A program made the position numbers and the translations under genes. 64,000 bases of DNA from Ignavibacteriaceae bacterium. GTDB lineage: Bacteria; Bacteroidota; Ignavibacteria; Ignavibacteriales; Ignavibacteriaceae. Positions 13,080 through 48,972 of the stretch are shown one piece after another; position 1 is the stretch's first letter; every line of letters starts with the position of its first letter. The notes under the pieces were generated by a model that saw nothing but the letters and a program-made list of their open reading frames with translations, ran no database searches and was not told the origin of the DNA. The stretch lies in assembly GCA_013360295.1 (NCBI GenBank), contig JABWCL010000003.1, positions 1 to 64,000 on the forward strand, in the 5' to 3' direction.

Positions 13080-14426
13080 CTATCCCTCTGCCGGAGCTTT
13101 CTTCACAACAATTTTTGATCCTTCGATGTGAGTTACTACTACCTTCTCCCCTTTATCAATGTAATCTCCCTCCGTAACAACATCATAGCGACTCCCCTCA
13201 ATCATAATATTTCCGGCAGGCCTCAGAGGAGTTATAGTATTGCCTGTAGCTCCCATCAAGACATTTTCAATTTTTGATGTACTAGTATTGTCATGACCTT
13301 CCAGCTGATCGGCTAACACAAGTTTACTAAAGTTACGCGACTTTGGAAGATAACGGAATATGATCGCGAAGATTAAAATTCCGGTTACCAGGGACCCTGC
13401 CAATTGAATAATGGCGGAATAGAGGAGATTGTCGACAAAATAGAATTCTGTATTGAGCAAAGAGAAAAATATGGAACCTATAATAAGAAGTATACCAAGA
13501 ATTCCCGCGATGCCGAAACCCGGTATTACAAAAATTTCAACAATAAGCAGAACGACCCCCGTCACAAAAATCAGAATCTCCATTATCGAAGCGAGTTCCA
13601 AAATGTAAGATGAGCCAAAGAATAATGTTAAAGCTATTAGTGCCGCGGTTCCCGGCAGACCCCAGCCCGGAGTCTTAATCTCTGTGAACATCCCTACTAA
13701 ACCGATCATAATAAGCAACGATGAAATGATGGGATTGTTCAGAAACCGGACAACTTTCTCTGCCCAGTTCGTCTCAAGGTAAACAAACTGATAATCCTTA
13801 AATCCAAATGCAGCGGGGATAGCGCCTTTCCTGTCAATAATTGTATCACAAACACCGTATTTAACTGCTTCTTCTGACGTAAGAGTGATTAATTTCTTAT
13901 CATCGTCCAGGCTGTCCACAATAACGGTTTCATCCACCATCCCCTCAGCCACATCAGTGCGTCGTCCGTTGCGCTCGGCGGTTGAACGCATCTCTGAACG
14001 CATATAACTTTGGTATTTTTCTCCCTGTTTCTGGCCGGTCTGATCCACCACAGTGGTTGCGCCTATACTGGCGCCTTTTGCCATAGCGATCTTTTTGCAG
14101 GAGAGAGTAATGAGCGCTCCAGCGGAAATTGCTCTTTTATTCACATACGCAATAGTTAAAACCTTTGAATCGAGTATCAGATCTTTCAGTTGAGTAGCCG
14201 CATCAACCCTGCCGCCGAAAGTGTTTATTTCAAAGATTATCGCGGCAGCGTTATTTTTTTCAGCTTCCGTTATCACCCGTTTAATGTGTGGTACCAGCCC
14301 AAGATCAATATCATCCTGAATGTAGGCATAGTAGATTTTCGCTTTTTGGGCGCTAACTTCTTGCGCAGAGAAAAATACAATTAAAGAAATCAGGAATAGG
14401 TTTAGTAAAAATAACGGGAATTTCAT
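13080..14426 (-). CDS. NfeD-family membrane serine protease (ClpP domain plus NfeD)
   Basis: 448 residues: signal peptide (1-26), ClpP-like protease domain (about 29-220), four or five membrane segments (about 230-355) and a C-terminal OB-fold NfeD domain (about 375-448). The oxyanion GG lies in NTFGGRVDA (71-72), the nucleophile Ser101 in RAISAGALI and a candidate general base Lys137 in GEKYQSYMRS, as in the archaeal 1510-N proteases. Partners are usually stomatin-like proteins, but none is adjacent. ribBA ends 10 bases upstream. Confidence 0.9.
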   Translation of the reverse strand: MKFPLFLLNLFLISLIVFFSAQEVSAQKAKIYYAYIQDDIDLGLVPHIKRVITEAEKNNAAAIIFEINTFGGRVDAATQLKDLILDSKVLTIAYVNKRAISAGALITLSCKKIAMAKGASIGATTVVDQTGQKQGEKYQSYMRSEMRSTAERNGRRTDVAEGMVDETVIVDSLDDDKKLITLTSEEAVKYGVCDTIIDRKGAIPAAFGFKDYQFVYLETNWAEKVVRFLNNPIISSLLIMIGLVGMFTEIKTPGWGLPGTAALIALTLFFGSSYILELASIMEILIFVTGVVLLIVEIFVIPGFGIAGILGILLIIGSIFFSLLNTEFYFVDNLLYSAIIQLAGSLVTGILIFAIIFRYLPKSRNFSKLVLADQLEGHDNTSTSKIENVLMGATGNTITPLRPAGNIMIEGSRYDVVTEGDYIDKGEKVVVTHIEGSKIVVKKAPAEG

Positions 14427-14436
14427 AACGGGGGCT

Positions 14437-15651
14437 CTAATGCTTTTTTAATTCGTCTTCTAAAATTAAGTGACCGAGCTTGTCCCGTTTTACCTGCAGG
14501 TATTTGTAATTAAAGTCGTTCGGCTCAATTTCAATCGGGACACGCTCTACTATCTGAAGTCCATACCCTTCCAAACCAACGACTTTCTTCGGGTTGTTAG
14601 TAAGTAAACGTATTTTTCTGACTCCGAGAGATAATAATATCTGGGCACCGATACCATAATCGCGCAGATCAGGCTTGAAACCCAGGTTTTCGTTTGCTTC
14701 GACTGTGTCTAAACCCTGATCCTGAAGTACATAGGCTTTCAATTTGTTTTCCAGCCCAATGCCTCTCCCCTCCTGTCTCATATAAACCAGGAGGCCTTTT
14801 CCTTCCTTATTGATTTTATCAAGCGCTGCGTTCAACTGGTCGTGACAATCACAACGGAGGGAATGGAAAATATCGCCAGTAAAACATTCAGAGTGCATCC
14901 TGACGAGTACCGGTTCGTTGCCATCTATCTCACCTTTTACCAGGGCAACGTGTTCCTTTCCATCCTGAAGGCTCTTAAACATATAAAGACGAAAATCTCC
15001 GTGTTTTGTAGGTAAATCGACACCAACGGTTCTTTCAACCAAAGTCTCTTTTCTAAGGCGGTATTCAATTAGATGCTGAACAGTGAGTACCTTAAGATTA
15101 AACCGGGTAGCAATCTCCAGAAGATCAGGAAGCCTCGCCATATTACCGTCTTCTTTTAGTATTTCGCATAAGACTCCCGCCGGCTTTAGACCTGCAAGTT
15201 TACACAGATCCACGACGGCTTCTGTATGGCCGGCACGCCTAAGTACACCGCCCTCTATTGACTTTAGAGGGAAGATATGTCCCGGCACCGCAAAATCTTC
15301 ATTTTTCGCCCCCTCATCAATCAGCTTTCTGATTGTGATCGCCCTGTCTGAGGCAGAGATACCGGTGGTAGTACCCTCAACGGCATCGACCGTAACAGTA
15401 AACTGAGTGCCATGGATCGCTGAATTATCTGCAACCATCATTGGTAAGCCAAGCCTGTCGAGATCACTCTCGATCATAGGCACACAGACCATTCCCCTTC
15501 CGTGAGTTATCATAAAATTAACCTTCTCAGGGGTCACTGACTCAGCAGAGCAAACGAAATCACCTTCATTCTCCCTCTCTTCATCATCAACCACAATGAG
15601 GATATTGCCTTTACGGAATTCCTCTATGGCTTCATCAACCGTGCAATACAT
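14437..15651 (-). CDS. ribBA: Bifunctional DHBP synthase/GTP cyclohydrolase II
   Basis: 404 residues. Carries out two entry steps of riboflavin synthesis. The N-terminal RibB half (1-200) has DDEERENEGDFV, the acidic metal loop, and AIHGTQFTVTVDA. The C-terminal RibA half has the zinc site CFTGDIFHSLRCDCHDQL, the GRGIGLENK motif and LRDYGIGAQIL. Both halves look complete. It lies in a tgt-yajC-ribBA-nfeD run; no other rib genes or FMN riboswitch are seen here. Confidence 0.97.
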   Translation of the reverse strand: MYCTVDEAIEEFRKGNILIVVDDEERENEGDFVCSAESVTPEKVNFMITHGRGMVCVPMIESDLDRLGLPMMVADNSAIHGTQFTVTVDAVEGTTTGISASDRAITIRKLIDEGAKNEDFAVPGHIFPLKSIEGGVLRRAGHTEAVVDLCKLAGLKPAGVLCEILKEDGNMARLPDLLEIATRFNLKVLTVQHLIEYRLRKETLVERTVGVDLPTKHGDFRLYMFKSLQDGKEHVALVKGEIDGNEPVLVRMHSECFTGDIFHSLRCDCHDQLNAALDKINKEGKGLLVYMRQEGRGIGLENKLKAYVLQDQGLDTVEANENLGFKPDLRDYGIGAQILLSLGVRKIRLLTNNPKKVVGLEGYGLQIVERVPIEIEPNDFNYKYLQVKRDKLGHLILEDELKKH

Positions 15652-34796: not shown

Positions 34797-36266
34797 ATGG
34801 AAACTCTCCAGTTATTACTCCTTTTTTTAGTTTTTATTTCACTGTCACTCCTGATGTTCTTCAGGAAAATCCCGGCACTGCTAGCATTGCCGCTTATGGC
34901 ATTTTTTCTCCCCATAATATCCGGAGTTTCCGTTGGTCAGACGATTGAATGGGTAATGGGAATGGGGTCAACCCGGTTAGCTGAAGCCTATACTATCGCG
35001 ATTTTTGGAAGCATGATCAGCATAATGCTGCAGAAGACGGGAGTCGCCGAGAAGTTTATCAAGACCGGCGCCGAACTTTCGGGTGATAAAGCGTGGAATA
35101 TTTCAGTTTTTATGCTTGTTCTGGTGATGTTACTCTTCACGACTCTAGGAGGTTTGGGCGCAATTATTATGGTCTCAACTGTCGTACTTCCGATACTGGC
35201 TGCCTCCGGGGTAGCTCCTGTCACAGTTGTTGGTATTTTCTTACTCGGACTCAGTATCGGGGGGATCTTAAACGTGGGCAACTGGGCTGTTTACACCAAC
35301 GTCCTCCACCTCGAAGTAACCGAAGTCAGGTCGTTCGCCCTTGTTATGTTCCTTATAACCTTCCTCGCTGCTTTAGTTTACGTGACAATCGAATTGTACA
35401 GGGGCGGTCACGATATTAATGTGAAAAAAATTACTGTTTATTCAATCATTGGTTTTGCGCTTCTTGCAGTACTGTTTTATATCTATCCGCTGATACCCAA
35501 AATATATGTAGACACCGTACTCTTTTATCTGTCGGTCTTGTATGCGTTCTTCAAACTCCTTGTAGCGGCTCTGATTATTCTCGTAATGGTTTATTTCCTG
35601 ATACGAATCTTGCTAAAAAAAGCAACCGATCATATTAGCGGTTTTGCTTACCTGATTCCAATAATTCCATTACTGCTCATCCTGATGTTCGAAATGAACT
35701 TCATCGCGGCATTTATAGTAGGCTTGCTTTATGGTTTTCTGACAACATACAGGAAAAACAGCCTGAACATTTTAATCAGGTCAATCCTCGAAGGCGGCAG
35801 CGTCGTGATGCCGGCTGTTGCCCTTATGCTCGGGATCGGTATGCTGCTAAATGCGGTGATGGGGCCGAATCTTAATTACAGCGAATTTTATCCGGAAGGA
35901 TGGCCTGTGCTTCTGCTGCTTAAACCGGTCATTGCAAACATAGTTCCGGAATCTGCATTGACTTATATTTTTATTTTCAGTCTCGCGGCTCCCCTTGCAC
36001 TCTACCGTGGGCCGCTCAATGTCTGGGGAATGGGATACGGGATCGCTGCAGTGCTTCTGGCAAGTGGGCTCGCACCGGGTGCTATCATGGGCCTTCTCCT
36101 CTCCGTTGGCCAGATACAGGGAATTTCCGATCCTACAAACACTCAGAACGTTTGGCTCGCTAATGAAATGAGGATCGATGTCCAGAAAATTTTGTGGAAT
36201 ACTCTCCCCTACACCTGGGCGATTGCTATAATTGGATTGATAATCGCTTCTCTTTTTTATTTTTAA
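34797..36266 (+). CDS. Ion-transporter-superfamily permease (GntP/CitM-like)
   Basis: 489 residues with about 12 membrane helices spread over the length, including a repeat-like layout (FTTLGGLGAIIMVSTVVLP; LGLSIGGILNVGNWAVY and later SEFYPEGWPV). This is the fold of secondary carriers for organic anions such as gluconate, lactate or citrate. It begins the plus-strand accessory cluster, and the next gene starts 23 bases after its stop. Substrate unknown; the cluster suggests a sugar acid or amino-sugar derivative. Confidence 0.75.
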   Translation: METLQLLLLFLVFISLSLLMFFRKIPALLALPLMAFFLPIISGVSVGQTIEWVMGMGSTRLAEAYTIAIFGSMISIMLQKTGVAEKFIKTGAELSGDKAWNISVFMLVLVMLLFTTLGGLGAIIMVSTVVLPILAASGVAPVTVVGIFLLGLSIGGILNVGNWAVYTNVLHLEVTEVRSFALVMFLITFLAALVYVTIELYRGGHDINVKKITVYSIIGFALLAVLFYIYPLIPKIYVDTVLFYLSVLYAFFKLLVAALIILVMVYFLIRILLKKATDHISGFAYLIPIIPLLLILMFEMNFIAAFIVGLLYGFLTTYRKNSLNILIRSILEGGSVVMPAVALMLGIGMLLNAVMGPNLNYSEFYPEGWPVLLLLKPVIANIVPESALTYIFIFSLAAPLALYRGPLNVWGMGYGIAAVLLASGLAPGAIMGLLLSVGQIQGISDPTNTQNVWLANEMRIDVQKILWNTLPYTWAIAIIGLIIASLFYF

Positions 36267-36289
36267 TGTATGACAAACAGGATGCAATC

Positions 36290-38443
36290 ATGAGGCAGAT
36301 AAAAATTGGAATTGATGTCGGCGGTACTTTTACCCACGCGGTGGCTGTAAATATTGCTGACTACAGTATTATTGGTAAATCCTGCGTCCCGACGACTCAT
36401 AAAGCAGCAGAAGGTGTGGCGAAAGGTGTTGTAGAATCAATGCTGGATCTGATCCGGATCAGCAACATTCATCCCGATGAGGTTATACTGATAGCCCATT
36501 CTACCACTCAGGCCACAAACGCATTACTCGAGGGCGATATCGCAAAAGTGGGTATTATCGGGCTCGGAAGAGGGTTCGAGGCAAAGCTGGCGCAGAAACA
36601 AATAAATCTTGGCAATATCGAGTTGTCTCCCGGGAAGTTTCTCTACACATATTTCAGGTTCGCCGACACCGGGAAATCATCTTGGAAGGAAAGTGTTCCA
36701 GGCCTGATCGCTTCACTGAAAGACGAAGGCGCCGAAGTAATCGTTGCCTCTGAAGTTTTCGGAGTAGATGATACAGCCAATGAAGAATTCGTTGTAACAG
36801 AGGCTGAAAAATTGAATTTCCTCTCTACTTCAGCCGGTTCCATATCCAAGTTATACGGGATTCGAGTCCGCACACGCACTGCCGCTATAAATGCGGCGAT
36901 GATGCCAAAGATGCTTGAGACAGCCAATATGACTGAAAAAGCAGTGAAGGAAAGCGGCATCAATGCACCTCTGATGGTAATGAGATCTGACGGTGGTATT
37001 ATGGATATCTCTGAGATGAGAAAGCGCCCCATCTTAACTATGCTCTCCGGTCCCGCAGCAGGCGTTGCAGCTGCCCTTATGTATATCAAAGTTTCAGACG
37101 GGGTTTTCCTCGAAGTAGGAGGAACATCGACTGACATTTCAGTTATCAAGAACGGTAAACCCCAAATAAAATCCGCACAAATCGGAAAGAACCGTTTATT
37201 TCTCAGAACGCTTGATGTCAGAACTCTTGGAATTGCCGGAGGTTCGGTGCCAAGAATCTCGGGAAATAAAGTTATAGATGTCGGCCCGCGTTCGGCACAT
37301 ATAGCAAATCTTAAATATGTTGCATATCATCAGAATATCGACAGCGAATCAATTGAAGTAGAAAAGGTACAGCCGCTGAAAGGTGATCCGTCTGATTACC
37401 TCGCTCTTAAAACAAGATTAGGGAATGAACGATTCACAATTTCCCCGACGGAGGCCTCTTACCAGCTGGGACTTGTTTCAGCAGTTGGACACGGTGAAGG
37501 AAATAAAGAACTGATCGGTAAAGTTTTTAGTAAGGTTGCCTCACTGTTAAACTCATCTGCCTCCGATCTTGCCGAGCAGATATTAAAGATCAGCGCTCTG
37601 AAGATAAAACCCGTTATACTCCAATTGGTTCGAGAATACAAACTTGATCCGGAGTTAATAAGATTCGTCGGCGGAGGAGGCGGCGCTTCGGCTATTGTTC
37701 CCTTCACAGGGAATTTTATGAACGTCCCTCACCAGATCGCGGAAAATTGTGAAGTCGTCTCCGCGATAGGCGCAGCGATGGGCATAATAAAAGATTCCGT
37801 TGAGCGTAATATTGTCAGCCCGAATGAAAATGATATTCTCTCACTTCGACAGGAAGCAATTAATTCCGTCCTTAAAATGGGAGCCTCACCGGAAAGTATC
37901 GAAGTAACGATTGAAATTGATAACCAGAATAAAAAAGTAATCGCGACTGCTTTTGGCTCCTCAGAATTCAAAACAAGTGAGATGGACAAGGCAGCACTTG
38001 ATGAAAATGGTTTGGCCGCGATTGCCGCGAAATCATTAAGGTGCAAACCTGAACAGGTTAACATTGAAGCAAAAAATGAATTCGTGGGAATCTACACCTA
38101 TCTGAAAAATAAACCACGTTTTATGTGGTTCGGAGGGGGATCGGAAAAATCTGTAAGAGTAGTGGAAAATGACGGAACTATCAGGCTTCAGGTAAATGAC
38201 GCGCAGGTAAACACCACTAATAAGAACGGAATTAAAACCCTGATTGGCAGCATCGTCGCGGAAAATACTACCTTCGGGGACGCGGGGGCTTTAGTTCCCG
38301 ACATATTTATCGTAATCGGAAGAAAGGTTCTGGATCTTTGCGGATTGATCACTGAAAGCCAGATCGTTTCCCTTGCAGAAATAGAAGTAAGAAATTTAAG
38401 TGAAAATGATATGCTGATAGTTGTATCGTCAAGGAAAAAATGA
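36290..38443 (+). CDS. Hydantoinase A/5-oxoprolinase-family ATPase
   Basis: 717 residues from the ATG at 36290, which follows an AGGA 8 bases upstream; longer readings from 36194 or 36266 extend it into the permease end. It has the ASKHA ATP-binding N-terminus IGIDVGGTFTHAVAV, then AHSTTQATNALLEG, the middle-domain TMLSGPAAGVAAAL and FLEVGGTSTDISVIK. Classical members use ATP to open a cyclic amide (5-oxoproline, hydantoin, N-methylhydantoin). No HyuB partner follows. The position between a permease and NanE is unusual, so substrate is unknown. Confidence 0.85.
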   Translation: MRQIKIGIDVGGTFTHAVAVNIADYSIIGKSCVPTTHKAAEGVAKGVVESMLDLIRISNIHPDEVILIAHSTTQATNALLEGDIAKVGIIGLGRGFEAKLAQKQINLGNIELSPGKFLYTYFRFADTGKSSWKESVPGLIASLKDEGAEVIVASEVFGVDDTANEEFVVTEAEKLNFLSTSAGSISKLYGIRVRTRTAAINAAMMPKMLETANMTEKAVKESGINAPLMVMRSDGGIMDISEMRKRPILTMLSGPAAGVAAALMYIKVSDGVFLEVGGTSTDISVIKNGKPQIKSAQIGKNRLFLRTLDVRTLGIAGGSVPRISGNKVIDVGPRSAHIANLKYVAYHQNIDSESIEVEKVQPLKGDPSDYLALKTRLGNERFTISPTEASYQLGLVSAVGHGEGNKELIGKVFSKVASLLNSSASDLAEQILKISALKIKPVILQLVREYKLDPELIRFVGGGGGASAIVPFTGNFMNVPHQIAENCEVVSAIGAAMGIIKDSVERNIVSPNENDILSLRQEAINSVLKMGASPESIEVTIEIDNQNKKVIATAFGSSEFKTSEMDKAALDENGLAAIAAKSLRCKPEQVNIEAKNEFVGIYTYLKNKPRFMWFGGGSEKSVRVVENDGTIRLQVNDAQVNTTNKNGIKTLIGSIVAENTTFGDAGALVPDIFIVIGRKVLDLCGLITESQIVSLAEIEVRNLSENDMLIVVSSRKK

Positions 38444-39150
38444 TGTTTGAAAAAATTAAGAACGAGATCAGATCCGGCCTCATAGTATCGTGCCAGGCCG
38501 AAGACGGTGACCCTTTCAATACTCCGGAAGGCGTGACTCTTTTTGCGAGAGCCGCCGTGATGGGCGGAGCGGTTGGAATACGCTCCCGCGAACTGGAAAA
38601 AACCGCGATGATCGTTAAACACGTGAACGTCCCGGTCATCGGCCTAACCAAGGCATTATTCAGTGATGGTTTCGTCAGGATCACTGGCAGCTATGCGGAG
38701 GTCGAGGCAATACTTAAATCCGGTTGCCATATCGTCGCGATTGATGGGACTTTCCGCGAACGCGAGGGAATCACCGGACCGCAGTTTATTACTAAAGTTA
38801 AGGAACGTTTTGGATGTCTAGTGATGGCGGACATTTCTACTTACGATGATGGCATTGCCTGCGCTGATTATGGCGCGGATTTTATTTCTACCACATTAAG
38901 CGGATATACTCCTGAGACCAAGTCTCATTCCTCACATAATCCTGATTTCGAGCTGGTAAGGCGTCTGGCATCCCAACTCCCCCAACCCGTGATCGCCGAA
39001 GGAAGAGTCAATACACCGGTACATGCGTTGCAAATGCTTGAACTTGGCGCATGGGCTGTCGTTGTTGGAACCGCAATAACCCGTCCAAGAGTTATAACCG
39101 AGTGGTATGTTAATAAAATGAAACAATCAGGAGAAAAAATTGAACAGTAA
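38440..39150 (+). CDS. nanE: N-acetylmannosamine-6-phosphate 2-epimerase-like protein
   Basis: 236 residues, TIM barrel. NanE converts ManNAc-6-P to GlcNAc-6-P. Markers: GLIVSCQAEDGDPFNTPEG, IGLTKALFSDGFVRIT (catalytic Lys region), CHIVAIDGT, VMADISTYDDG and the IAEGRVNTP general-acid motif. The equivalent of the usual RDY segment after the Lys reads ALFSDGF, a variant. Its ATG overlaps the HyuA-type stop by 4 bases and its end overlaps the mutase start by 11. No nanA, nanK or nagB nearby. Confidence 0.85.
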   Translation: MMFEKIKNEIRSGLIVSCQAEDGDPFNTPEGVTLFARAAVMGGAVGIRSRELEKTAMIVKHVNVPVIGLTKALFSDGFVRITGSYAEVEAILKSGCHIVAIDGTFREREGITGPQFITKVKERFGCLVMADISTYDDGIACADYGADFISTTLSGYTPETKSHSSHNPDFELVRRLASQLPQPVIAEGRVNTPVHALQMLELGAWAVVVGTAITRPRVITEWYVNKMKQSGEKIEQ

Positions 39151-40576
39151 AACAAAAATCGTCTTTGGTACCGATGGCTGGCGCGGTCTGATTAACGAAG
39201 AATTGAATAACCAGAATATCGGAAGGGTTGCCGCAGCTTTTGCGTTATATCTTGTTAAGAATACCAGATCGGGTAAGATGGTTAAAGTTGCAATCGGTTA
39301 CGATGGCAGGCAATACTCCCGGAAATTTGCGGTCCTCTTCTCCAGAGTACTTGCCTCACAAAATATCGAAGTATTCTTCTCCGAGCAGATTATCCCCACT
39401 CCCCTGCTCTCCTATTATGTTAGAGCTAATTATCTTGATGCGGGCGTCATGGTTACCGCAAGCCATAATCCGCCTGAGTACAACGGAATAAAATTTAAGG
39501 CTTCATATGGCGGGCCTTTCCTCACTGAAGAGACGCACAAAGTGGAATCATACATAGATCGCGAACTCGTGCAGGTAAGCGATAAAAATATTCACCAGGT
39601 TGATTTTACCAACATTTATTTTCAGCAAATCGAAAAGATGGTGGACTTTTATTCTATCCGGAAATCGGGAATTAAAGTTCTGATTGATTCGATGGCGGGT
39701 GCCGGACAGCAGATGCTTGAGAACATTTTGCTCAAACATCATTGCCCCGCGGAAACGATTTTTAAGTTTGCTGAATCTGATTTTGCCTCACGGCTTCCGG
39801 AGCCGATTGAAAAAAATTTAACTCCCTTAAGGGATGAACTGATTGCAAATGGTAATTACGCAATGGGGATTGCTACTGACGGTGATGCAGACAGGGTAGG
39901 GATCTTGATGGATAATGGGGAATGGCTCAGCGCTCAGGAGACAATTCTATATTTATCCGACTTCCTGATAAATTATAAAAAACTATCCGGTGATATTGTC
40001 AAGACTTCATCAGTGACAGATAAACTGGTCGAACTGACAAATTCGACAGGAAGAGGCCTGCACAATGTACAAGTTGGATTTAAATACATCTGCGAAAAGA
40101 TGATAACTGAGGATATTCTGTTCGGAGCAGAAGAATCCGGTGGATTCGGTTACAAAAACCATATGCCGGAAAGAGATGGTTTGCTTTCAGGGTTACTAAT
40201 GACTGAGATGCTGGCTGTTTCTGGTTATTCAAAACTCAGTGAATATGTCAAAGTAAAAAGAAAAGAGTTCGGTGATACATTCTACAAACGAATTGACATG
40301 GAATATCATTCTCCTGACAGGAATGATCTCTTGCCTGAACTTTATGGCAAAAATCCTGATGCAATTAACGGTGAGAAAGTAAAGTCAATCCAATCGTTTT
40401 ATAGCAGCAGGAATGTAATTAACGGACTTAAATTCACTTTCAGAGGGAATGCACGCTGGCTTCTGATAAGATCATCTGAAACGGAACCTCTCCTCAGATT
40501 CTACGCTGAGGGTAACAGCAATGAAGATGTTGATAAACTACTTAACATCGGGAAAGACATAATAACAATAAAATAA
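39140..40576 (+). CDS. Phosphohexomutase (phosphoglucomutase/phosphomannomutase family)
   Basis: 478 residues, alpha-D-phosphohexomutase superfamily. GTDGWRG (about 10-16), phosphoserine Ser108 in TASHNPPEYNG, metal loop ATDGDADRVGIL (about 243-254), sugar loop GAEESGGFGY and the phosphate-binding domain 4 (RSSETEPLLRFY). The last motif fits glucose-1-P/mannose-1-P mutases. It can link the GH94 product (an aldose-1-P) to the 6-phosphate. Overlaps nanE; next gene 9 bases on. Confidence 0.9.
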   Translation: MNSKTKIVFGTDGWRGLINEELNNQNIGRVAAAFALYLVKNTRSGKMVKVAIGYDGRQYSRKFAVLFSRVLASQNIEVFFSEQIIPTPLLSYYVRANYLDAGVMVTASHNPPEYNGIKFKASYGGPFLTEETHKVESYIDRELVQVSDKNIHQVDFTNIYFQQIEKMVDFYSIRKSGIKVLIDSMAGAGQQMLENILLKHHCPAETIFKFAESDFASRLPEPIEKNLTPLRDELIANGNYAMGIATDGDADRVGILMDNGEWLSAQETILYLSDFLINYKKLSGDIVKTSSVTDKLVELTNSTGRGLHNVQVGFKYICEKMITEDILFGAEESGGFGYKNHMPERDGLLSGLLMTEMLAVSGYSKLSEYVKVKRKEFGDTFYKRIDMEYHSPDRNDLLPELYGKNPDAINGEKVKSIQSFYSSRNVINGLKFTFRGNARWLLIRSSETEPLLRFYAEGNSNEDVDKLLNIGKDIITIK

Positions 40577-40585
40577 TCCTTCATT

Positions 40586-41956
40586 ATGAGTATCAAACTG
40601 ACAAATAAAAATGAGATTATTAATTTAATCAATCAGCACGATGGCGAATATGTGATAATAAATAATCCTGAATACATATTCCCCGAAAGAGAGTTTTACC
40701 GTCTTGCAGACCGGAACCTTAACCCCCTGAAAATGCTTGATGCCGTCCTTATGGATATGGACGGTACGACAACCACTACAGAGGAATTGTGCATCCATTC
40801 GCTTGAATATATGGTTCGGGTTATTTCGGGGCTTGAAAGTCATTTGATCTGGCCAGGGCTTGACCGGACTGAAGACTACCCGCATATTATCGGAAACAGC
40901 ACTACTAAGCACGTTGAATACCTCATCCAGAAATATCATAAAGGTATTAAGTCTGATAACCTCAGTAAAGCTTATATCTTTGCCGCTCTGTGGACACTGA
41001 TTTACTCCCAGGATTTAAACAGGGTCAATGAAGTTAAAGTAAACCTGAAGAAGTTCTTGCCTGTTAAGGACTCAGCAGTCTTCGCTTCGATTATTCCGGA
41101 CAAATCAAATGCCTCGAAAAAAGGATTTGCTGAATTACTGAAATCAGCAGCAAAAAAATTCTATGGAAAACTGCACATTCACGGTAAGGACGATATCGTT
41201 CGCGCTTCAATTGACATATACTATCAGCGCTACCACGAAATTCTTCATAGGATAAAAAAAGGCGAATCAGAAAAACTTCAAAAAGAACTCGGACTTGCAA
41301 CCGGAAAATCACTGATTGAACCAATGCAGGGCACACCGGTCTTTCTCGCTTTAGTGAAAGGGCTTCTCGGAAATGAAGCTGACAAACTTACGGATGAGCT
41401 TATATCGGATTATATCAGGAAAGACAAATCCTTTTTGCCTCCTTCTTCAACAGCAGGTATCTGGCAAAAGTTACGCAGACTCGGATTGTATTTCGAAAAA
41501 CATCCGGTGAAGGTTGCAGTAGTAACGTCTTCAATAATGTACGAAGCAGAAATTGTGTTATCGCAGTTATTCGAAGAAATCAGGAACGTCATCGCTGAGT
41601 GGAAAATAAACGCAGCCCGAAAAAAACGGATACTGGAAAGGTTTTCCTCACCACATAATTTTTACGATGCAATAATTACGGCAACAGATTCAAGTGAAAT
41701 AAGGTTAAAACCGCACAGGGATCTTTATAGTATTGCTCTCTATAAACTTGGAGTACCTAAATCATCCTTTAGGAACGTGATCGGATTCGAGGACAGTGAA
41801 AGCGGAACAATAGCCATTCGTGCCGCAGGCGTAGGAAAGAGCATTGCAGTTCCTTTCGCCCATACGCAGGGGCATAATCTCGCTGCTGCGACACTGATCG
41901 CAGAAGGCGGACTACCAGAAATAATTATTAAGAATAACATATTTATCAAGCTATAA
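40586..41956 (+). CDS. HAD hydrolase, unusually long, beta-phosphoglucomutase-like
   Basis: 456 residues. HAD motifs in order: DMDGTTTTT (Asp57 nucleophile, Asp59 acid/base), VAVVTSS (motif II), RLKPHRDLYSIAL (motif III Lys) and GFEDSESG (motif IV). Motif III/IV resemble beta-phosphoglucomutase and sugar phosphatases. These are usually about 220 residues; here about 50 residues precede motif I and a roughly 240-residue segment separates motifs I and II, containing a normal cap plus a large insertion (about 130-280). Mutase or phosphatase on a cluster sugar phosphate; not certain. Confidence 0.82.
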   Translation: MSIKLTNKNEIINLINQHDGEYVIINNPEYIFPEREFYRLADRNLNPLKMLDAVLMDMDGTTTTTEELCIHSLEYMVRVISGLESHLIWPGLDRTEDYPHIIGNSTTKHVEYLIQKYHKGIKSDNLSKAYIFAALWTLIYSQDLNRVNEVKVNLKKFLPVKDSAVFASIIPDKSNASKKGFAELLKSAAKKFYGKLHIHGKDDIVRASIDIYYQRYHEILHRIKKGESEKLQKELGLATGKSLIEPMQGTPVFLALVKGLLGNEADKLTDELISDYIRKDKSFLPPSSTAGIWQKLRRLGLYFEKHPVKVAVVTSSIMYEAEIVLSQLFEEIRNVIAEWKINAARKKRILERFSSPHNFYDAIITATDSSEIRLKPHRDLYSIALYKLGVPKSSFRNVIGFEDSESGTIAIRAAGVGKSIAVPFAHTQGHNLAAATLIAEGGLPEIIIKNNIFIKL

Positions 41957-41962
41957 AAACTT

Positions 41963-44749
41963 ATGAGACCAGACAAAGTTTTCCATCTTATTTCCAATAC
42001 TCACTGGGACCGTGAATGGAGGTTCCCTTTCCAAAGAAACAGGCAGATGCTTGTTGAGATGATTGATAATGTGATTAATATACTCGAAAAGCATCCTGAC
42101 TATCGCGCTTTTCATCTCGACAGCCAGAGCATCGTCGTTACTGATTATCTTGAAATAAAACCAAAAAACCGAGACCGGATTACTAAACTAGTAAATGAGA
42201 AAAGATTACTGATCGGTCCCTGGTATGTTTTACCGGATGAATTCCTTGTAGGAGGTGAAAATCTTATCCGCAACCTGTTAATCGGTCACAGGATCTGTAA
42301 GGATATCGGAAGGGTTTCGAAAATAGGGTATTCCCCTTTTTCCTGGGGACAGATATCACAGCTGCCTCAGCTTTATAATCAATTCGGAATCGAGCTGATA
42401 ATGTTCTACCGCGGAGTGAATTCACTCGATTCACATAACGCGGAGTTTATTTGGGAGGGTGCTGACGGCACACGCGCGGTTTCTTCCCGCTTCTCTACCT
42501 TGCCAAGGTATAATTTTTATTTTCTTATATATCGTCCGGTGATTCATAATGAAACACCTTATGATGTTGAATATAAATGGCAGAGTGGCGGCGTCCCTTT
42601 CCATTTTGCGGATAGTTCAATGTACAAAGAAGATTATTTCATGGTAGAGGGACACGGGAAATATTTCCCCGAAAATATAAAAAAATCGGTGGAAGATATT
42701 GTCTCCAGACAGGCAGACGACTTTACCACACCCCACGTCATTTGGATGGAGGGGCATGACTCAAGCGGGCCTAATGCTGATACTCTTAAAATACTTGAGG
42801 ATATTCGCAGGCAATTCCAGAATATGAATGTAATCCACAGTACTCTCGAGGATTATGCGGATGCCGTTATAAACTCGGTGAATATCGAGCAGCTGCCACT
42901 GGTAAAAGGTGAAAGAAGAAGCGCACAGTTTGATAACAGAAGCGGTAATTTATACGGATATACAACTTCCGCCCGCATGTACCTCAAACAAAAAAATTAT
43001 GAAGCGGAAAAATGGCTTCAGTTCTATGCTGAACCGGTTTATAATCTGACTTCTCTTCTGGGTAATGACACGGACAATAATTACCTGAACCTCGCCTGGG
43101 ACTATCTTGTACAGAATTCCGGACACGATTCCATCGGCGGCTGCAGCCTCGATGAAATACATGAGGATATGATGTGGCGTTATAAACAGGTAATTGAAAT
43201 ATCTCAGGGAGTACTTGAGAAAGGTCTTAAATACTGGATTAAAAATCTCGATCTAAAGGCTTTTAGTTCCTTTACGCCTGCCGGAATAATGCTAAATTTT
43301 GTCAATACTCTCCCCTATAAACGTTCAGGAACTTCCGAAATCGTTATTGATATTCCATCTGATCTTGATAAAGGGGATTTTGACATTATCGACGTTAACG
43401 GGAAAAAACTCCCGAAAGAGATCAGATCCGTTGATGAAACTCAACCGGTACTCGAACAGTTAACCGACCGTCCGATGTACTTCAGTATGAGAAGGTATTT
43501 TGTGACCGTTCAGTGGAAAGATCTTGTTCCTATGGGGATAACTGCTTTCGCTGTCAAACCAAAGAAACTATCTGCTGTTAAACAGCTTGTTTCCACAAAA
43601 AATCGAAGCAAAAGAGTCGTAATTGAGAATAACCATCTACGGGTTGTAATTAATAAAAATGGAACTTTTGACCTTCTTTATAAGAAGACGGGGTATGAAT
43701 ACTATTCACTCGGTTATCTGCGAGATGAAGGCGAAGCCGGACACGCATGGGTAAACAAACCGGTTGACCCTATTATAGATTCGCTAAATGGTACTGCCGA
43801 GATTGAATTGGAAGAAAAAAATTCTCTCACCGAAAAAGTAAAGATCACTTTGTATCTTGCTCTCCCACTCAACCGTGTGCAGATGTCTCCGCTCTTCCCG
43901 AAAAACACCAGGAAAGTAAAAACACCTGTGGAGGTTTTACTTACACTGAATAAGAACGAGGATTTCCTCAGAATAAAATTGAACGTTGAAAGCAGGACGA
44001 TAAACCATCGGCTTCGATACGTCTTCCCTACTGAATTAAATGTCAGTGCGCATTCTGCTGAAGGCCAGTTCGACGTAGTTAAACGGACAACTTCAAGGCC
44101 TGATACAAGCAACTGGATTGAGCAGCCAATGTATGATTTTCCGGCACATCATTTTGTCAGTCTCTTCAACGGGGAAAACGGACTATCTGTCTTCTCTAAC
44201 GGATTAAAAGAGTATGAAGTAAGTGACGGTCCGGAAAGTGAACTTTCATTCACTCTTCTTCGTGCTTTTACATATATCATTCACCCGAGTTCGAAAGAAG
44301 ATTACTCTTATCAGCCGGGTAGCCAGTGCCTTGGTCAGCAAACTTTTGATTTCGCGCTATGCCCGCATAATAAAAACTGGGATGAAGCAGGAATCTATAG
44401 AAAAGCACTCGAATATTCGCTTCCTCCTTCCGTGGTGCAGTCTGGCATTTCGTTGAATGGCTTTGTCTCCCCAAATTCTTCTCTTGTAAGTATCAATAAT
44501 GAAAACCTGATTATTAGCTGCCTCAAAAAATCTGAGGATGGAACCGGTTATATTCTGAGAGTTTATAACCCGACTGAAAAAACTATTACCGGCTATATTG
44601 AATTCGGCTTAGGAATAAAAAATGCTCAGTATTCAACCCTGGAAGAAATCCGAATATCACGGGTTGATATCGAGAATGGAAATAAAATCTCAGTGAAAGC
44701 TGGTTCAAAAAAAATAATTTCAATCTATTTCGAAAAAAAGGATGATTAA
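41963..44749 (+). CDS. Glycoside hydrolase family 38 protein lacking the catalytic Asp
   Basis: 928 residues, no signal peptide. Similar over its length to bacterial GH38 alpha-mannosidases such as MngB: SNTHWDREWRFPF (zinc ligands His14, Asp16), LIGPWYVLPDE, IRNLLIGHR, EGHDSSGP (Asp266, candidate acid/base) and GHDSIGG (His388). The nucleophile and zinc ligand normally in GYLPDSFG is missing: the segment reads GYSPFSWGQISQLPQL, with Phe126 replacing Asp (codon 42338-42340). No frameshift. The protein cannot use the known retaining mechanism. Six bases before it is the HAD gene, two bases after it GH94. Confidence 0.88.
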   Translation: MRPDKVFHLISNTHWDREWRFPFQRNRQMLVEMIDNVINILEKHPDYRAFHLDSQSIVVTDYLEIKPKNRDRITKLVNEKRLLIGPWYVLPDEFLVGGENLIRNLLIGHRICKDIGRVSKIGYSPFSWGQISQLPQLYNQFGIELIMFYRGVNSLDSHNAEFIWEGADGTRAVSSRFSTLPRYNFYFLIYRPVIHNETPYDVEYKWQSGGVPFHFADSSMYKEDYFMVEGHGKYFPENIKKSVEDIVSRQADDFTTPHVIWMEGHDSSGPNADTLKILEDIRRQFQNMNVIHSTLEDYADAVINSVNIEQLPLVKGERRSAQFDNRSGNLYGYTTSARMYLKQKNYEAEKWLQFYAEPVYNLTSLLGNDTDNNYLNLAWDYLVQNSGHDSIGGCSLDEIHEDMMWRYKQVIEISQGVLEKGLKYWIKNLDLKAFSSFTPAGIMLNFVNTLPYKRSGTSEIVIDIPSDLDKGDFDIIDVNGKKLPKEIRSVDETQPVLEQLTDRPMYFSMRRYFVTVQWKDLVPMGITAFAVKPKKLSAVKQLVSTKNRSKRVVIENNHLRVVINKNGTFDLLYKKTGYEYYSLGYLRDEGEAGHAWVNKPVDPIIDSLNGTAEIELEEKNSLTEKVKITLYLALPLNRVQMSPLFPKNTRKVKTPVEVLLTLNKNEDFLRIKLNVESRTINHRLRYVFPTELNVSAHSAEGQFDVVKRTTSRPDTSNWIEQPMYDFPAHHFVSLFNGENGLSVFSNGLKEYEVSDGPESELSFTLLRAFTYIIHPSSKEDYSYQPGSQCLGQQTFDFALCPHNKNWDEAGIYRKALEYSLPPSVVQSGISLNGFVSPNSSLVSINNENLIISCLKKSEDGTGYILRVYNPTEKTITGYIEFGLGIKNAQYSTLEEIRISRVDIENGNKISVKAGSKKIISIYFEKKDD

Positions 44750-44751
44750 AA

Positions 44752-47163
44752 ATGAAAAGTAAAACTATAAAAAATAAATACGGATACTTCAGTGAGGACT
44801 ATAGGGAGTATGTCATCACGGATCCCAGGACTCCCCGTCCCTGGTTTAACTATGTATGGAATGAGCAAATGATGGGACTCGTGTCTCATACCGGCGGTGG
44901 TTTCTCTTTTCTTGATACACCGCGCGATAACAGATTAACCAGAATGAGGTATAACTGCCTTCCCTGGGACCGTCCCGGCAGGTATGTGATCCTGAAAGAT
45001 GCGCAGTCAGGCAAATACTGGTCACTAAGCTGGGCGCCGACTATAGATTTTAAATACAAGTCTTATGAATGCCGGCACGGACAGGGTTATACTAAGATCA
45101 TTACCGAGGCTGAAGGAATTAAAGGGGAACTCACCTATTTCATCACCCCCGGATCAAACACGGAAGTCTGGAAGGTGAAACTAACAAACCTTACCAAGCG
45201 GGAAAGAAGACTCGAAATCTATTCCTTCGCTGAACTTATGATGGGTAATGCTCTGAATGACATCATCAATCAGCCTAACGACAAACATTTTACAGATATT
45301 CACTTTCATAAGGATCAGAGGTCCCTTGTAGCAACCCGCCGTTACTGGGTACTTAACAGAAAAGTTTCAGTAGAACAGCCGAACCTTGACTGGAAATATA
45401 ATCTGATCTTTACTACGACACTCCCCGTCTCAGGTTTTGATGGCAGCCTTGATAAATTCATTGGGCGCTGGAGATCAGAGTCTAATCCGGTTGCGATTGA
45501 AACAGGGAAATTGAGTAATACTGAAATAACCGCAGGCGATCCGGTTGTTGCTCTGCAATCAAAGAAGAAATTGGCTGCTGGAAAGACTCTTGAATTCGCC
45601 GTTACGATGACTGTGGTACCTAAGAAGGATAGCATTTTTGAAGATGTCGATTTTCCTATACTTCATTCAGTAGAGAGTCTGGAGAAGGAATTTAATAAGG
45701 TCAGATCAGACTGGGACAAGTATTTGTCAAATGTGAAAGTCACAACTCCTGATACCGGAACAAACATTATGCTTAATGTTTGGAATCAGTACCAGGCTGC
45801 AGTAACCTTTGATATGGCGCGTAATTCGGGATATTATCACGGCGGATTACTTTTTGGTACAGGCATCAGGGATCAGTTCCAGGATATACTCGGTGTTGTT
45901 ATTGCTAATCCTGACCGCGTCAGGAAACGCCTGCTGAATGCACTCCGCTTCCAGTTCTCCGACGGATCGACACTTCATAACTTTTTTAAGATCACCGAAT
46001 GGGGTGAAAAAACCAACCACTCTGACACTCCGCTTTGGATTCCGTTCGGAATTATCGAATACTTAAACGAGACAGCCGATCTGAGTATTCTTGATGAAGT
46101 CGTTACGTATTATGATCAGGGGGAAGGGACAGTCTACGAGCATATGGTCAGAGCTATTGATTTTGCTATCTCAGCTGTATCAGAGAGAGGCATCCCAAAA
46201 ATAATGAACGGCGACTGGAACGATACACTTGATAAAGTTGGCCCGAAAGGTAAAGGCGAAACTATCTGGGGAGCCTTCTTCCTCGCATATGGAATCAAAA
46301 AATGTTTTGAATTATTGAATCTCAGAAATGATAACGATGTTAAAGAAAGATGGCAGAGTTACCTGAATGACCTCACCAAAACCCTTGAGAAGATTGCGTG
46401 GGACGGAGAATGGTATATTAGAGCCTTCAAAGATGACGGATCCCCGCTCGGTACACATAAAGCCGAACAGGGCAAAATTTTCATCAATTCCCAGACCTGG
46501 TCAGTCATCTCAGGTCTCGCTCCCAAAGATAAAGCTGACTCCGCCCTGAATTCAGTTAAAAAATATCTTGCGAAACCTAACGGGATTCAGATTTGCTGGC
46601 CTTCATATACAAAAGTTGAAGAAAATGTCGGGCTTATCAGCCGCTGTGTTCCGGGCAAAAAGGAAAACGGCGCTATTTTCAATCATGCCTCCTCTTGGTT
46701 TATCCTTGCATCAATAATCAACGGCGATATTGATTTTGCTTACGATATATACACAAGAATGCTCCCGGTAAATTCATCGAAGAGAATTGATGTATATGAG
46801 GTTGAGCCGTATGTATTCGCTGAATATGTTACTAGTCCCGACCACCCAACTGAAGGGCAGGCGAGCCATTCCTGGCTCACCGGCACCGCTGTATGGATGT
46901 ATCGCATAGCTCTCGATCAGATACTTGGATTTAAGACATCCATCGCTGGAATTACAATCGATCCCGCTATTCCATCCCACTGGAAAGAATTCAGGGCAGA
47001 ACGTGTATTCCGCGGTAAGAGGATTAAATTATTCGTAAAGAATCCGTTCGGCAGAAATAAGGGCTTTACCCAGATTATCGTGAACGGTAAAGTTACTGAC
47101 TCAAACTTCATCGACACCGAAGTTTACGGCGGAAATGAAATTCACGTTGAAGTAATTCTCTGA
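44752..47163 (+). CDS. GH94 glycoside phosphorylase (cellobiose/chitobiose phosphorylase family)
   Basis: 803 residues, close to chitobiose phosphorylase (about 800). Phosphorolyses a beta-linked disaccharide to sugar-1-phosphate with inversion. N-terminal domain PRPWFNYVWNEQMMG and TGGGFSFL; GTGIRDQFQDILG; catalytic acid Asp491 in NGDWNDTLDKVG; then EPYVFAEYVTSPDHP and the SWLTGTAVWMYR end. No signal peptide, so intracellular. Product would feed the mutase upstream. Acceptor specificity unknown; the NanE and AAC(3)-like neighbours hint at an amino sugar. Confidence 0.92.
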   Translation: MKSKTIKNKYGYFSEDYREYVITDPRTPRPWFNYVWNEQMMGLVSHTGGGFSFLDTPRDNRLTRMRYNCLPWDRPGRYVILKDAQSGKYWSLSWAPTIDFKYKSYECRHGQGYTKIITEAEGIKGELTYFITPGSNTEVWKVKLTNLTKRERRLEIYSFAELMMGNALNDIINQPNDKHFTDIHFHKDQRSLVATRRYWVLNRKVSVEQPNLDWKYNLIFTTTLPVSGFDGSLDKFIGRWRSESNPVAIETGKLSNTEITAGDPVVALQSKKKLAAGKTLEFAVTMTVVPKKDSIFEDVDFPILHSVESLEKEFNKVRSDWDKYLSNVKVTTPDTGTNIMLNVWNQYQAAVTFDMARNSGYYHGGLLFGTGIRDQFQDILGVVIANPDRVRKRLLNALRFQFSDGSTLHNFFKITEWGEKTNHSDTPLWIPFGIIEYLNETADLSILDEVVTYYDQGEGTVYEHMVRAIDFAISAVSERGIPKIMNGDWNDTLDKVGPKGKGETIWGAFFLAYGIKKCFELLNLRNDNDVKERWQSYLNDLTKTLEKIAWDGEWYIRAFKDDGSPLGTHKAEQGKIFINSQTWSVISGLAPKDKADSALNSVKKYLAKPNGIQICWPSYTKVEENVGLISRCVPGKKENGAIFNHASSWFILASIINGDIDFAYDIYTRMLPVNSSKRIDVYEVEPYVFAEYVTSPDHPTEGQASHSWLTGTAVWMYRIALDQILGFKTSIAGITIDPAIPSHWKEFRAERVFRGKRIKLFVKNPFGRNKGFTQIIVNGKVTDSNFIDTEVYGGNEIHVEVIL

Positions 47164-47164
47164 T

Positions 47165-47965
47165 TTGGATTTACTCCGGTTTCTTTTTGATATAGGGATC
47201 AGGCGTGGACATAACATTATTGTCCACGCCTCCTTTAAGAGTCTCTCGACTCTCTTCCCTTCTATCACCCCTGAACATTTTTTTAGTACCTTAACTTCTT
47301 TTATTACCTCGAAGGGTTCGGTGATTCTTCCTGCGTTTACATACAACCTAAAGAAAAAGGATGGCGAAAAATCTTTTTTTCACAAATCAGCTCCGGCAAA
47401 AACAGGATACATTTCAGAAGCTTTCAGAAATTTTCCCGGGACAATCAGGACATCCTCCCCTACTCACTCCTTCACCCTTTGGGGTAGGATAACAACAGAA
47501 ATTGAAAGTTCAAATAACCCATCGTACCCGTTGGGCGGTAGCAGTCCTGTAGGCTGGATGGATCAAAACGTTGATTCATTCGCTTTGCTCATTGGAACAA
47601 CATTCAACTCGCTGACTTATCTCCACTATCTCGAGAGAACTTTCAATATTCCATATCTCGATCTCTTCTGCTGGCAGGATGATTATTTGCCTGTTGGAGT
47701 GAGTGAAGAGGGAGAAGTTAATTTAGAAGAGGTTCCGGGATGCAGTAACGGATTCGAAGAGCTCGAAACCTGGCTTCTTGAAGAACAGAAACTAGCGAAA
47801 ACTGTTTATGGGGATGTCTGCATTTATTATATTCGTTTAAGTATGTTAAAGTCAATGTCTGAGTCTTTCTTTAAAAATTCATACAAAAAACTCCTTTGCA
47901 AAAACCCATATTGCATATGCTGTAATACACGGAAAAATTTTCTGAAAGACCGGGGTTTGATATGA
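47165..47965 (+). CDS. AAC(3)-family N-acetyltransferase
   Basis: 266 residues, TTG start one base after GH94. Antibiotic_NAT fold: NIIVHASFKSLS, SVILPAFTYN, TSSPTHSFTLWG (catalytic His region), PLGGSSPVGWM, ALLIGTTFNSLTYLHYLER. Known members acetylate aminoglycosides, but many are sugar or unknown acetyltransferases. Being in a sugar pathway operon, it more likely acts on an amino sugar. The C-terminus has a Cys cluster (CKNPYCICC) not typical of the family. Overlaps the next gene by 4 bases. Confidence 0.85.
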   Translation: MDLLRFLFDIGIRRGHNIIVHASFKSLSTLFPSITPEHFFSTLTSFITSKGSVILPAFTYNLKKKDGEKSFFHKSAPAKTGYISEAFRNFPGTIRTSSPTHSFTLWGRITTEIESSNNPSYPLGGSSPVGWMDQNVDSFALLIGTTFNSLTYLHYLERTFNIPYLDLFCWQDDYLPVGVSEEGEVNLEEVPGCSNGFEELETWLLEEQKLAKTVYGDVCIYYIRLSMLKSMSESFFKNSYKKLLCKNPYCICCNTRKNFLKDRGLI

Positions 47966-48972
47966 GTTATCATTTATTTGTAGCTGAGTACAATCATATA
48001 CCAGTGGTGAAGCTAGAAAACAAAAGCACGGGTGAGTATGCCATTATCGCTCTCAGAGGGGCCACACTATTAAAACTGGTGATTCGTACAGGTGAAAAAC
48101 TTATCGATGTGGTTGACGGTTATTTTGATGTTAAGGAACTTGAATCAGGATCCGCCGCAAGATCGGCCATTATGGTCCCTTTCTCAAATAAGATCGAGAA
48201 TAACCGGTATGTTTTCGATGATTGCGATTATCAACTCTCCGAAACTCCAACTCCTCCGATGATGCACGGATTCTTAAGAAATATGGATACAGAAATAAAA
48301 GAAAAATATGATTGCTCAAGCCACTGTAAAGTTGTTCTAACCAACAGCGGAATTAGAAAAGATACTTTCCCCGGTTATCCTTTTGATCTCTCAACGGATA
48401 TCATATTTGAACTTTTTGAGAATAGACTGAATCTTGAAATAAGATCAAAGAACAAAAGCACAAAACCGGCTCCTTATTTTACCGGCTGGCACCCATATTT
48501 CAAAATCGGGAGTACGCCTGTAAACGATCATATCATCTGCCTTGAATCAGAGACCATAATCTCAACTGACGCCAATTATCTTCCCCTCCCCGGTAATGAA
48601 GCTTATCTAAAAATTGGATTAGCAGATCCGCGTTGCTTTTCTTCCAGGAAAAAACCGGTAGAGCGAAGAATTAACGATAAGATCATAAACTACTGTTATA
48701 CCTCTATTGAGCCTGATTCTGACGGAAGGATTAAAGCAGAACTTATTTCAGAGTCTGAAAACACTAAGCTAAAATTATCGCATACTGGTAAAGTGTTCTA
48801 CATATTTACAGGGGATGGTTTACCCATTAGGCCCCGTAATTCGATCGCCCTGGAACCGGTGGAGTTGATGACAAATGCATTTAACAGGAGTGAACACACA
48901 ATGGATATACGCCTCCTGCCTGAAGAATCCAAAACTTTTTTCTGCTCACTTGAATGGAGTCCCCTGAAATGA
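47962..48972 (+). CDS. Aldose 1-epimerase family protein
   Basis: 336 residues, GalM-type beta-supersandwich. Interconverts aldose anomers. Candidate residues: His in PMMHGFLRN, the His in FTGWHPYFKI, and Glu in IALEPVELMTN as general base. Starts by 4-base overlap with the acetyltransferase. Likely serves the anomeric form needed after hydrolysis or phosphorolysis in this cluster. Confidence 0.87.
   Translation: MSYHLFVAEYNHIPVVKLENKSTGEYAIIALRGATLLKLVIRTGEKLIDVVDGYFDVKELESGSAARSAIMVPFSNKIENNRYVFDDCDYQLSETPTPPMMHGFLRNMDTEIKEKYDCSSHCKVVLTNSGIRKDTFPGYPFDLSTDIIFELFENRLNLEIRSKNKSTKPAPYFTGWHPYFKIGSTPVNDHIICLESETIISTDANYLPLPGNEAYLKIGLADPRCFSSRKKPVERRINDKIINYCYTSIEPDSDGRIKAELISESENTKLKLSHTGKVFYIFTGDGLPIRPRNSIALEPVELMTNAFNRSEHTMDIRLLPEESKTFFCSLEWSPLK

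Follow-up and report, generated by a model that had tools for sequence, protein, structure and literature searches.

The locus and the GH38-F protein

The window analysed for the current report, a stretch of 64,000 nucleotides, comprises positions 1 to 64,000 of the forward strand of contig JABWCL010000003.1, in assembly GCA_013360295.1 of an Ignavibacteriaceae bacterium, and the two neighbouring plus-strand genes considered here lie within one of its operons. The downstream gene, at 41963..44749, is an unbroken open reading frame (ORF) whose 928-residue product has the fold of glycoside hydrolase family 38 (GH38) and lacks the catalytic nucleophile of that family. We refer to this protein as GH38-F and propose that it might be an inverting alpha-mannoside phosphorylase. 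The upstream gene, at 40586..41956, stops six bases before GH38-F and encodes a HAD-superfamily protein of 456 residues with a fold like those of CbbY and beta-phosphoglucomutase (beta-PGM), which we propose as a beta-hexose-1-phosphate mutase or phosphatase.

By both sequence and fold GH38-F is a member of GH38. Four Pfam domains of the family exceed their curated cut-offs (PF01074, 118.1 bits; PF07748, 56.5; PF17677, 40.7; PF09261, 36), and an AlphaFold2 model (pLDDT 86.6, pTM 0.89) finds as its best match in a fold search the Streptococcus pyogenes enzyme SpGH38 (2wyh; Z 39.6, root mean square deviation 2.5 over 833 residues), in keeping with a full-length, five-domain GH38 fold. The original prediction, made for this DNA from the letters alone, had described an intact frame that matches bacterial alpha-mannosidases along its whole length, and both descriptions hold. 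The closest solved structures are 2wyh and those of an Enterococcus faecalis enzyme (3lvt/5kbp), and residues 5-159 of GH38-F align with 2wyh by phmmer with no gap.

The zinc ligands of SpGH38 are H13, D15, D125 and H351, with D125 as the counterpart of the nucleophile and D232 as the acid/base, according to PMC2815779; in the same source R149 is thought to promote the ionisation of D125, and D15, D352 and H351, together with the zinc, touch the sugar at its O2/O3 end. With position numbers carried over by hand from the alignment, H13, D15, D232 and H351 correspond to H14, D16, D266 and H388 of GH38-F, and W18, F127, R149 and D352 to W19, W128, R150 and D389, while D125 falls on F126. The clade-invariant triplet His14-Trp15-Asp16, which supplies two of the retained zinc ligands, is encoded at 42002..42010, the Phe126 codon, within the motif GYSPFSWG, at 42338..42340, the general acid Asp266 at 42758..42760, and the pair formed by the zinc ligand His388 and the -1 subsite residue Asp389 at 43124..43129 (all on the plus strand). 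The replacement of the nucleophile and zinc-ligand Asp by Phe126, and the retention of His14, Asp16, His388 and Asp266, had thus been read exactly. The usual His-Asp-Asp-His zinc site is left with three of its four ligands (H14, D16 and H388), the fourth being the lost Asp. With the nucleophile that defines the class replaced and a zinc ligand lost with it, GH38-F should not be filed as a retaining alpha-mannosidase.

Distribution and phylogeny of the Phe clade

Copies of GH38-F, gathered from 59 related genomes and from named public contigs (the best 80 of 318 relatives), occur at 35-75% identity in Ignavibacteria, Bacteroidota, Balneolota, Neomarinimicrobiota, Calditrichota, KSB1, Planctomycetes and gut Clostridia. 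Some loci were sampled twice, through both search sets; duplicates were taken out only for the 67 representatives described below, a fragmentary copy broken by the ends of contigs (L022) was kept unaltered, and the counts throughout ignore kinship. In an alignment of 149 GH38 rows, which includes near-duplicates and in which MngB (twice among the seven HWD-type controls) and the window protein were each entered twice, position 126 is Phe in 106 rows, Asp in 43 and any other residue in none. Since Phe is common to the whole clade, and most Phe rows come from other assemblies, sequencing error and a decaying gene are ruled out, as the original prediction had maintained for sequencing noise, and the probability left to an error of sequencing or assembly is vanishingly small. 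Some of these genomes and loci also hold further GH38 genes, and those keep the Asp, in motifs that vary (PDSFG, PDTFG, FDSFG, CDMFG and similar); the segment described earlier as a universal PDSFG is therefore universal in its Asp and overstated in its other letters. Thinning at 85% identity leaves 67 Phe representatives, all with W128, so that the Phe/Trp clade for which an alignment had been recommended does exist, and in all 67 the three zinc ligands and the general acid D266 are invariant.

The set of 106 Phe rows is defined by its own residue, and the independent statement comes from a tree of 83 rows (built by a quick method, with SH-aLRT support only and no bootstrap). In this tree a single branch (SH-aLRT 99) parts 43 Phe rows from 40 Asp rows and requires one change of state, which supports treating the GH38-F clade as a distinct subfamily of GH38. 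MngB and other bacterial enzymes of the HWD type group with this clade (support 100). Seven rows from Clostridia, Planctomycetes and Neomarinimicrobiota, which we call type 2, form one group inside the clade (support 100), and the KSB1 copy at L089 branches at the base of the clade, with the result that the type-1 label needs two changes in the tree. A hydrophobic leader was looked for in 41 aligned members, from start codons chosen by script, and none was found, so that GH38-F is probably a cytoplasmic protein.

Beyond position 126, comparison of the 67 representatives with ten Asp-type HWD relatives over the first ~520 positions (MngB counted once among the ten, and the antisense frame D_L142_2911 removed beforehand) identified 19 near-invariant residues specific to the clade: N12, R20, S54, S124, F126, W128, Q130, S132, N153, S175, R176, P181, R182, W206, F213, Q250, D253, S268 and A337. 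Most of them are polar or basic: they comprise five Ser, three Arg, two each of Asn, Gln, Phe and Trp, and one each of Asp, Pro and Ala. The spacing from F126 to D266 is 139-142 residues in the clade versus 96-109 in the Asp-type relatives, so that the stretch from the nucleophile position to the acid position has gained an insertion of ~30-45 residues. The inserted region (approximately residues 178-240, at 42494..42682, plus strand) carries the invariant residues P181, R182, N184, R191 and D224 and the near-invariant W206. The original prediction would have been undone by a nearby acid that replaces the missing Asp, together with normal mannosidase activity. An obvious replacement nucleophile was sought in the same ~520 residues and none was found besides D253, the only clade-invariant acid absent from all ten Asp-type relatives, and possibly D224, a weaker candidate with an Asp opposite it in four of the ten; either may be the replacement.

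The HAD partner and its linkage to GH38-F

The HAD partner carries the DxDG, Lys-Pro and EDS motifs of its superfamily, and D57, D59, G60, K375, P376, E402, D403 and S404 are invariant in 35 aligned HADs. Its cap motif GxS (GNS or GHS) lies opposite GIS of YcjU and differs from the corresponding GLR of HxpB, GKQ of HxpA, GSP of YqaB and GNG of Gph; the motif marks mutases. A phmmer search of the PDB with the window protein gave no matches, and neither did HAD profile A3, while profile A2 gave five weak ones (among them TM_1254, CbbY and MtlD). The HAD of the type-2 loci is shorter (~330 residues), yet it aligns with the long Ignavibacteria form by hhalign at 99.3% with 33% identity, across the core and the cap motif, despite the different other neighbours of the two types.

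A HAD gene lies within 700 bp of GH38-F in 75 of 80 loci, a figure that combines 74 of 79 from a motif-based count with L066, which the motif missed and which does have the HAD, as compared with one of 22 Asp-type GH38 loci, where the HAD is on the opposite strand. The controls were hand-picked (20 from search matches and two others), and two of the three HAD profiles were built from part of the same neighbours and favour the test set over the controls; the third profile, from five E. coli HADs, gave the single control match. Among the 59 related genomes, 22 contain GH38-F and 23 contain the HAD, with both in 22 and the HAD alone only in G046 (Fisher p ~3e-15, kinship ignored). Judged by coordinates, the two genes adjoin each other in 19 of the 22 genomes; in the other three (G010, G024 and G049) they are on separate contigs. 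The set is split in G024 such that one contig has the permease, HydA, phosphohexomutase and HAD genes of the operon and another has GH38-F and the GH94 gene. Two genomes, G007 (L176 9748-17997) and G032 (L178 9189-17436), have the usual order of permease, HydA, NanE, phosphohexomutase and GH94 genes and are missing both the HAD and GH38-F between the last two, and each carries an Asp-type GH38 gene at an unrelated locus (L177 and L179). Because both genes are missing from these otherwise usual operons, we conclude that the HAD and GH38-F form a unit, which an operon either has or lacks.

A proposed phosphorolytic mechanism

An inverting phosphorylase needs only an acid, since phosphate attacks directly and takes the place of the enzyme's base, as explained in PMC8950772. 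In GH38-F the acid is kept and the nucleophile is absent, with D224 and D253 as possible hidden bases; the combined loss of the Asp, retention of the acid and gain of basic and hydroxyl residues is what would be expected if phosphate attacks from the old Asp side. From these residues and from the partner genes we infer phosphorolysis, and we propose tentatively, at somewhat short of an even chance, that GH38-F works in the cytoplasm as a zinc-dependent, inverting glycoside phosphorylase, and that it arose a single time, from a GH38 alpha-mannosidase of the retaining kind.

In the proposed reaction, inorganic phosphate, which is plentiful in the cytoplasm, would be held in a predicted site formed by the clade-specific Arg, Ser, Gln and Asn residues together with Arg150, and would attack the anomeric carbon from the former Asp face, with Asp266 as the proton donor to the leaving group. 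Cleavage would then yield a beta-hexose-1-phosphate, which is most likely to be beta-D-mannose-1-phosphate. Ordinary phosphohexomutases use alpha-1-phosphates, so that beta-mannose-1-phosphate would need an enzyme of its own, and the HAD partner might turn it into the 6-phosphate (as a mutase) or into the free sugar (as a phosphatase). Parallel to this, the GH94 phosphorylase and the phosphohexomutase of the Ignavibacteria-type operon might process beta-linked units through alpha-hexose-1-phosphate, and NanE might serve a branch for N-acetylmannosamine-6-phosphate. Taken as a whole, the system could represent a permanent, natural form of "chemical rescue", in which a zinc-dependent GH38 scaffold has become an inverting alpha-mannoside phosphorylase that is coupled, in several phyla, to a mutase from a new HAD subfamily that is dedicated to beta-mannose-1-phosphate; we regard this fuller version as a possibility worth stating rather than as a probable one.

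A number of observations weigh against phosphorolysis or against the role proposed for the HAD. At position 126, Phe is a bulky stand-in for Asp, and the loop at residues 121-130 is modelled at a pLDDT of 65, so that room for phosphate at this place is unproved. No counterpart of SpGH38 Y192, which hydrogen-bonds the nucleophile D125, could be mapped in the GH38-F alignment, and Y574 is represented by Trp596, although Trp occurs there in Asp-type rows as well. Judged from sequence, D224 or D253 could act as a general base. The HAD falls far below the NCBIfam cut-offs for beta-PGM (TIGR02009, 32.7 versus 153.35; TIGR01990, 21.7 versus 189.4), its fold scores rank a CbbY phosphatase (Z 19.7), phosphonatase (18.5) and YniC (18.3) ahead of beta-PGM (18.1), and in hhalign comparisons with five single E. 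coli HADs the top match is YqaB for the long form and HxpA for the short one; it is not assignable from sequence or fold as a mutase rather than a phosphatase. Five of the 80 loci have no adjacent HAD: L044 starts at a contig edge and L090 has a different ORF upstream, on a contig that ends within the gene, whereas L076, L089 and L109 have upstream flanks in which the HAD is absent (L076 and L210 of G024 are one contig, and the HAD of that genome sits on another). Finally, HAD paralogues in G046, G042, G040 and G044 (L180-L183) occur without GH38-F next to them and adjoin an aldose 1-epimerase-like gene, which is possibly a hint at anomer chemistry.

The surrounding operon

The operon is headed, on the plus strand, by a hydrophobic protein (34797..36266) which has no Pfam, NCBIfam or PHROGs match and which we have labelled a probable permease. 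It is followed on the same strand by HydA, a Pfam-supported protein of the hydantoinase A/oxoprolinase family (36194..38443, its true start probably further in); by NanE, of the N-acetylmannosamine-6-phosphate epimerase family (38440..39150, above its NCBIfam cut-off); and by a GlmM-like phosphohexomutase of the PGM/PMM type (39140..40576, Pfam and NCBIfam). Downstream of GH38-F, again on the plus strand, are a GH94 phosphorylase (44752..47163; Pfam) like those for cellobiose and chitobiose, which score 473 and 455 bits, respectively, and a GalM-like protein of the aldose 1-epimerase family (47962..48972, Pfam). The presence of NanE suggests that part of the target glycan of the operon is N-acetylmannosamine. 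HydA is kept in the operon, and no HyuB-like gene adjoins it in the window. Between the GH94 and GalM-like genes, at 47165-47965, is an Antibiotic_NAT (AAC(3)-like) protein. Its matches to four NCBIfam AAC(3) models all fall under the respective cut-offs, so that instead of conferring resistance it perhaps N-acetylates a sugar in the pathway.

Searches by tblastn with the window proteins found the HAD in 56, the GH94 gene in 40, the phosphohexomutase in 36, NanE in 28, HydA in 23 and the permease in 11 of the 58 Ignavibacteria-type loci (L031-L088), and none of NanE, the GH94 gene, HydA or the permease in the 20 type-2 (Clostridia/Planctomycetes-type) loci, one of which has the phosphohexomutase; the flanks are often short in both types. 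By clustering, 5 of 22 type-2 loci have an MFS_2-type transporter (one Pfam-tested) and 3 of 22 a sodium-solute symporter (SSF; two Pfam-tested). Elsewhere in the source genome, profile matches to PfkB (5), ROK (3) and glucosamine isomerase (3) indicate that sugar kinases are encoded outside the operon; a PMI C-terminal domain gave no matches in this genome, with a weak model that finds only 2 of 14 controls.

Several variations are seen among the related loci. In L031 (1916-4929) two FAD_oxidored (PF12831) proteins flank NanE; L041 has similar ORFs, and none occur between the operon genes of the window. Directly behind the GH94 gene of L041, at 13202-14851, is a phosphodiester glycosidase of the NAGPA type with a type IX secretion tail, which may supply the substrate of the operon. 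Near the HAD paralogues mentioned above are an MFS gene (L180) and a UDP-GlcNAc 2-epimerase-like gene (L181-L183, Pfam-tested in L181 only).

Alternative explanations

The most serious competitor, which we consider unlikely but well worth keeping in view, is an inverting hydrolase in which D224, D253 or a zinc-bound water serves as the general base and the HAD would be a sugar phosphatase that belongs to the pathway but is otherwise unrelated. D224 and D253 are both invariant in the clade, D224 lies within the inserted region, loss of a zinc ligand could open a coordination site for water, and the fold of the HAD is nearest to a phosphatase (CbbY). Such an enzyme would, however, give no account of why a HAD that acts on sugar phosphates is tied to GH38-F and not to the Asp-type GH38 genes; the new near-invariant residues are mainly Ser, Arg, Gln and Asn with a single acid among them, and the position of D224 is also Asp in 4 of 10 Asp-type relatives. 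Less probable still is a substrate-assisted hydrolase of alpha-N-acetylmannosaminides, in which the axial 2-acetamido group would attack from the side where the nucleophile used to be and NanE would take N-acetylmannosamine-6-phosphate. From the established mechanism we would expect the stereochemistry to fit, and NanE is encoded in the operon and in 28 of the 58 Ignavibacteria-type loci, many of them truncated; but the counterparts of the residues that touch the O2/O3 end of the sugar (SpGH38 D15, D352 and H351) are invariant, which argues for a free 2-hydroxyl, NanE is found in none of the 20 type-2 loci (with their often short flanks), and it is present in G007 and G032, neither of which has GH38-F.

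A similarly low probability attaches to a hydrolase or lyase whose alpha-mannoside substrate carries a phosphate or some other anionic group, by analogy with MngB, whose substrate is 6-phospho-mannosylglycerate. Here the new Arg residues of the clade would bind the charge and the HAD would remove the phosphate, and the NCBIfam mannosylglycerate hydrolase model PRK09819 does match at 471 bits, although its cut-off is 1138. The loss of the nucleophile would go unexplained unless the mechanism had changed as well; no gene of a phosphotransferase system is found among the nine operon proteins scanned, and the type-2 loci carry transporters of the MFS_2 and SSF types. Binding of a 6-phosphate as in MngB was considered separately as the reason for the new Arg residues and is not supported, MngB being without the insertion in the alignment. 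The absence of a catalytic nucleophile might also point to a non-catalytic, sugar-binding or sensor protein; the original prediction had allowed for a binding role. Such a protein we regard as improbable, given that all domains are kept, that the acid and three zinc ligands are invariant in the 67 representatives, and that GH38-F is found or missing together with the gene for an enzyme, the HAD. Of the three outcomes offered in that prediction, the distinct subfamily is borne out by the one-branch split, the binding role is disfavoured, and a new reaction, which we propose to be phosphorolysis, appears to be the best reading.

Significance and comparison with known systems

Whatever the reaction proves to be, the existence of a multi-phylum clade inside GH38 that lacks the defining residue of the family means that annotation by family name is misleading here. 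If phosphorolysis is correct, the clade would give uncultured and gut bacteria a way to break down alpha-mannosides with phosphate, carried out by proteins that are best matched by GH38 domains and mannosylglycerate hydrolase, as well as a phosphorylase for the synthesis of mannosides and a natural example of the conversion of a retaining glycosidase into an inverting phosphorylase through loss of the nucleophile. Within the literature searched, as judged by titles and the openings of abstracts and with subscription journals poorly covered, no GH38 phosphorylase was found, and GH38 is not mentioned in the main text of PMC8950772; if phosphorolysis is correct, GH38-F would then be the first phosphorylase of this fold and the first to act on alpha-mannosides.

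GH38-F shares with the HWD-type GH38 enzymes (SpGH38, 2wyh/2wyi; the E. faecalis enzyme, 3lvt/5kbp; and MngB) the whole fold, the general acid, three of the four zinc ligands and the equivalents of W18, R149 and D352. It differs from them in having Phe for the Asp that is both nucleophile and fourth ligand, Trp for F127 and Trp for Y574, and in its 30-45 inserted residues and closely tied HAD partner. The HAD partner has in common with the beta-phosphoglucomutases and the CbbY-type phosphatases the HAD core, the DxDG motif, a GxS motif as in YcjU and the fold (Z 18-20), and is set apart from them by its 456 residues, enlarged cap and N-terminal extension and by scores far below the beta-PGM cut-offs of NCBIfam.

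The conversion of a hydrolase into a phosphorylase by a single change has a precedent in a GH84 N-acetylglucosaminidase, a point mutant of which became a phosphorylase, as mentioned in PMC8950772; that change was engineered, and in a different family. The pairing of genes has a natural counterpart in E. coli, where the GH65 kojibiose phosphorylase gene ycjT adjoins the beta-phosphoglucomutase gene ycjU. The two systems would share a two-gene logic, in which an alpha-glycoside is converted to a beta-hexose-1-phosphate that is then passed to a HAD enzyme, with both steps being predictions in the case of GH38-F and its partner; and they differ in that ycjT and ycjU represent another fold family and act on glucose instead of mannose.

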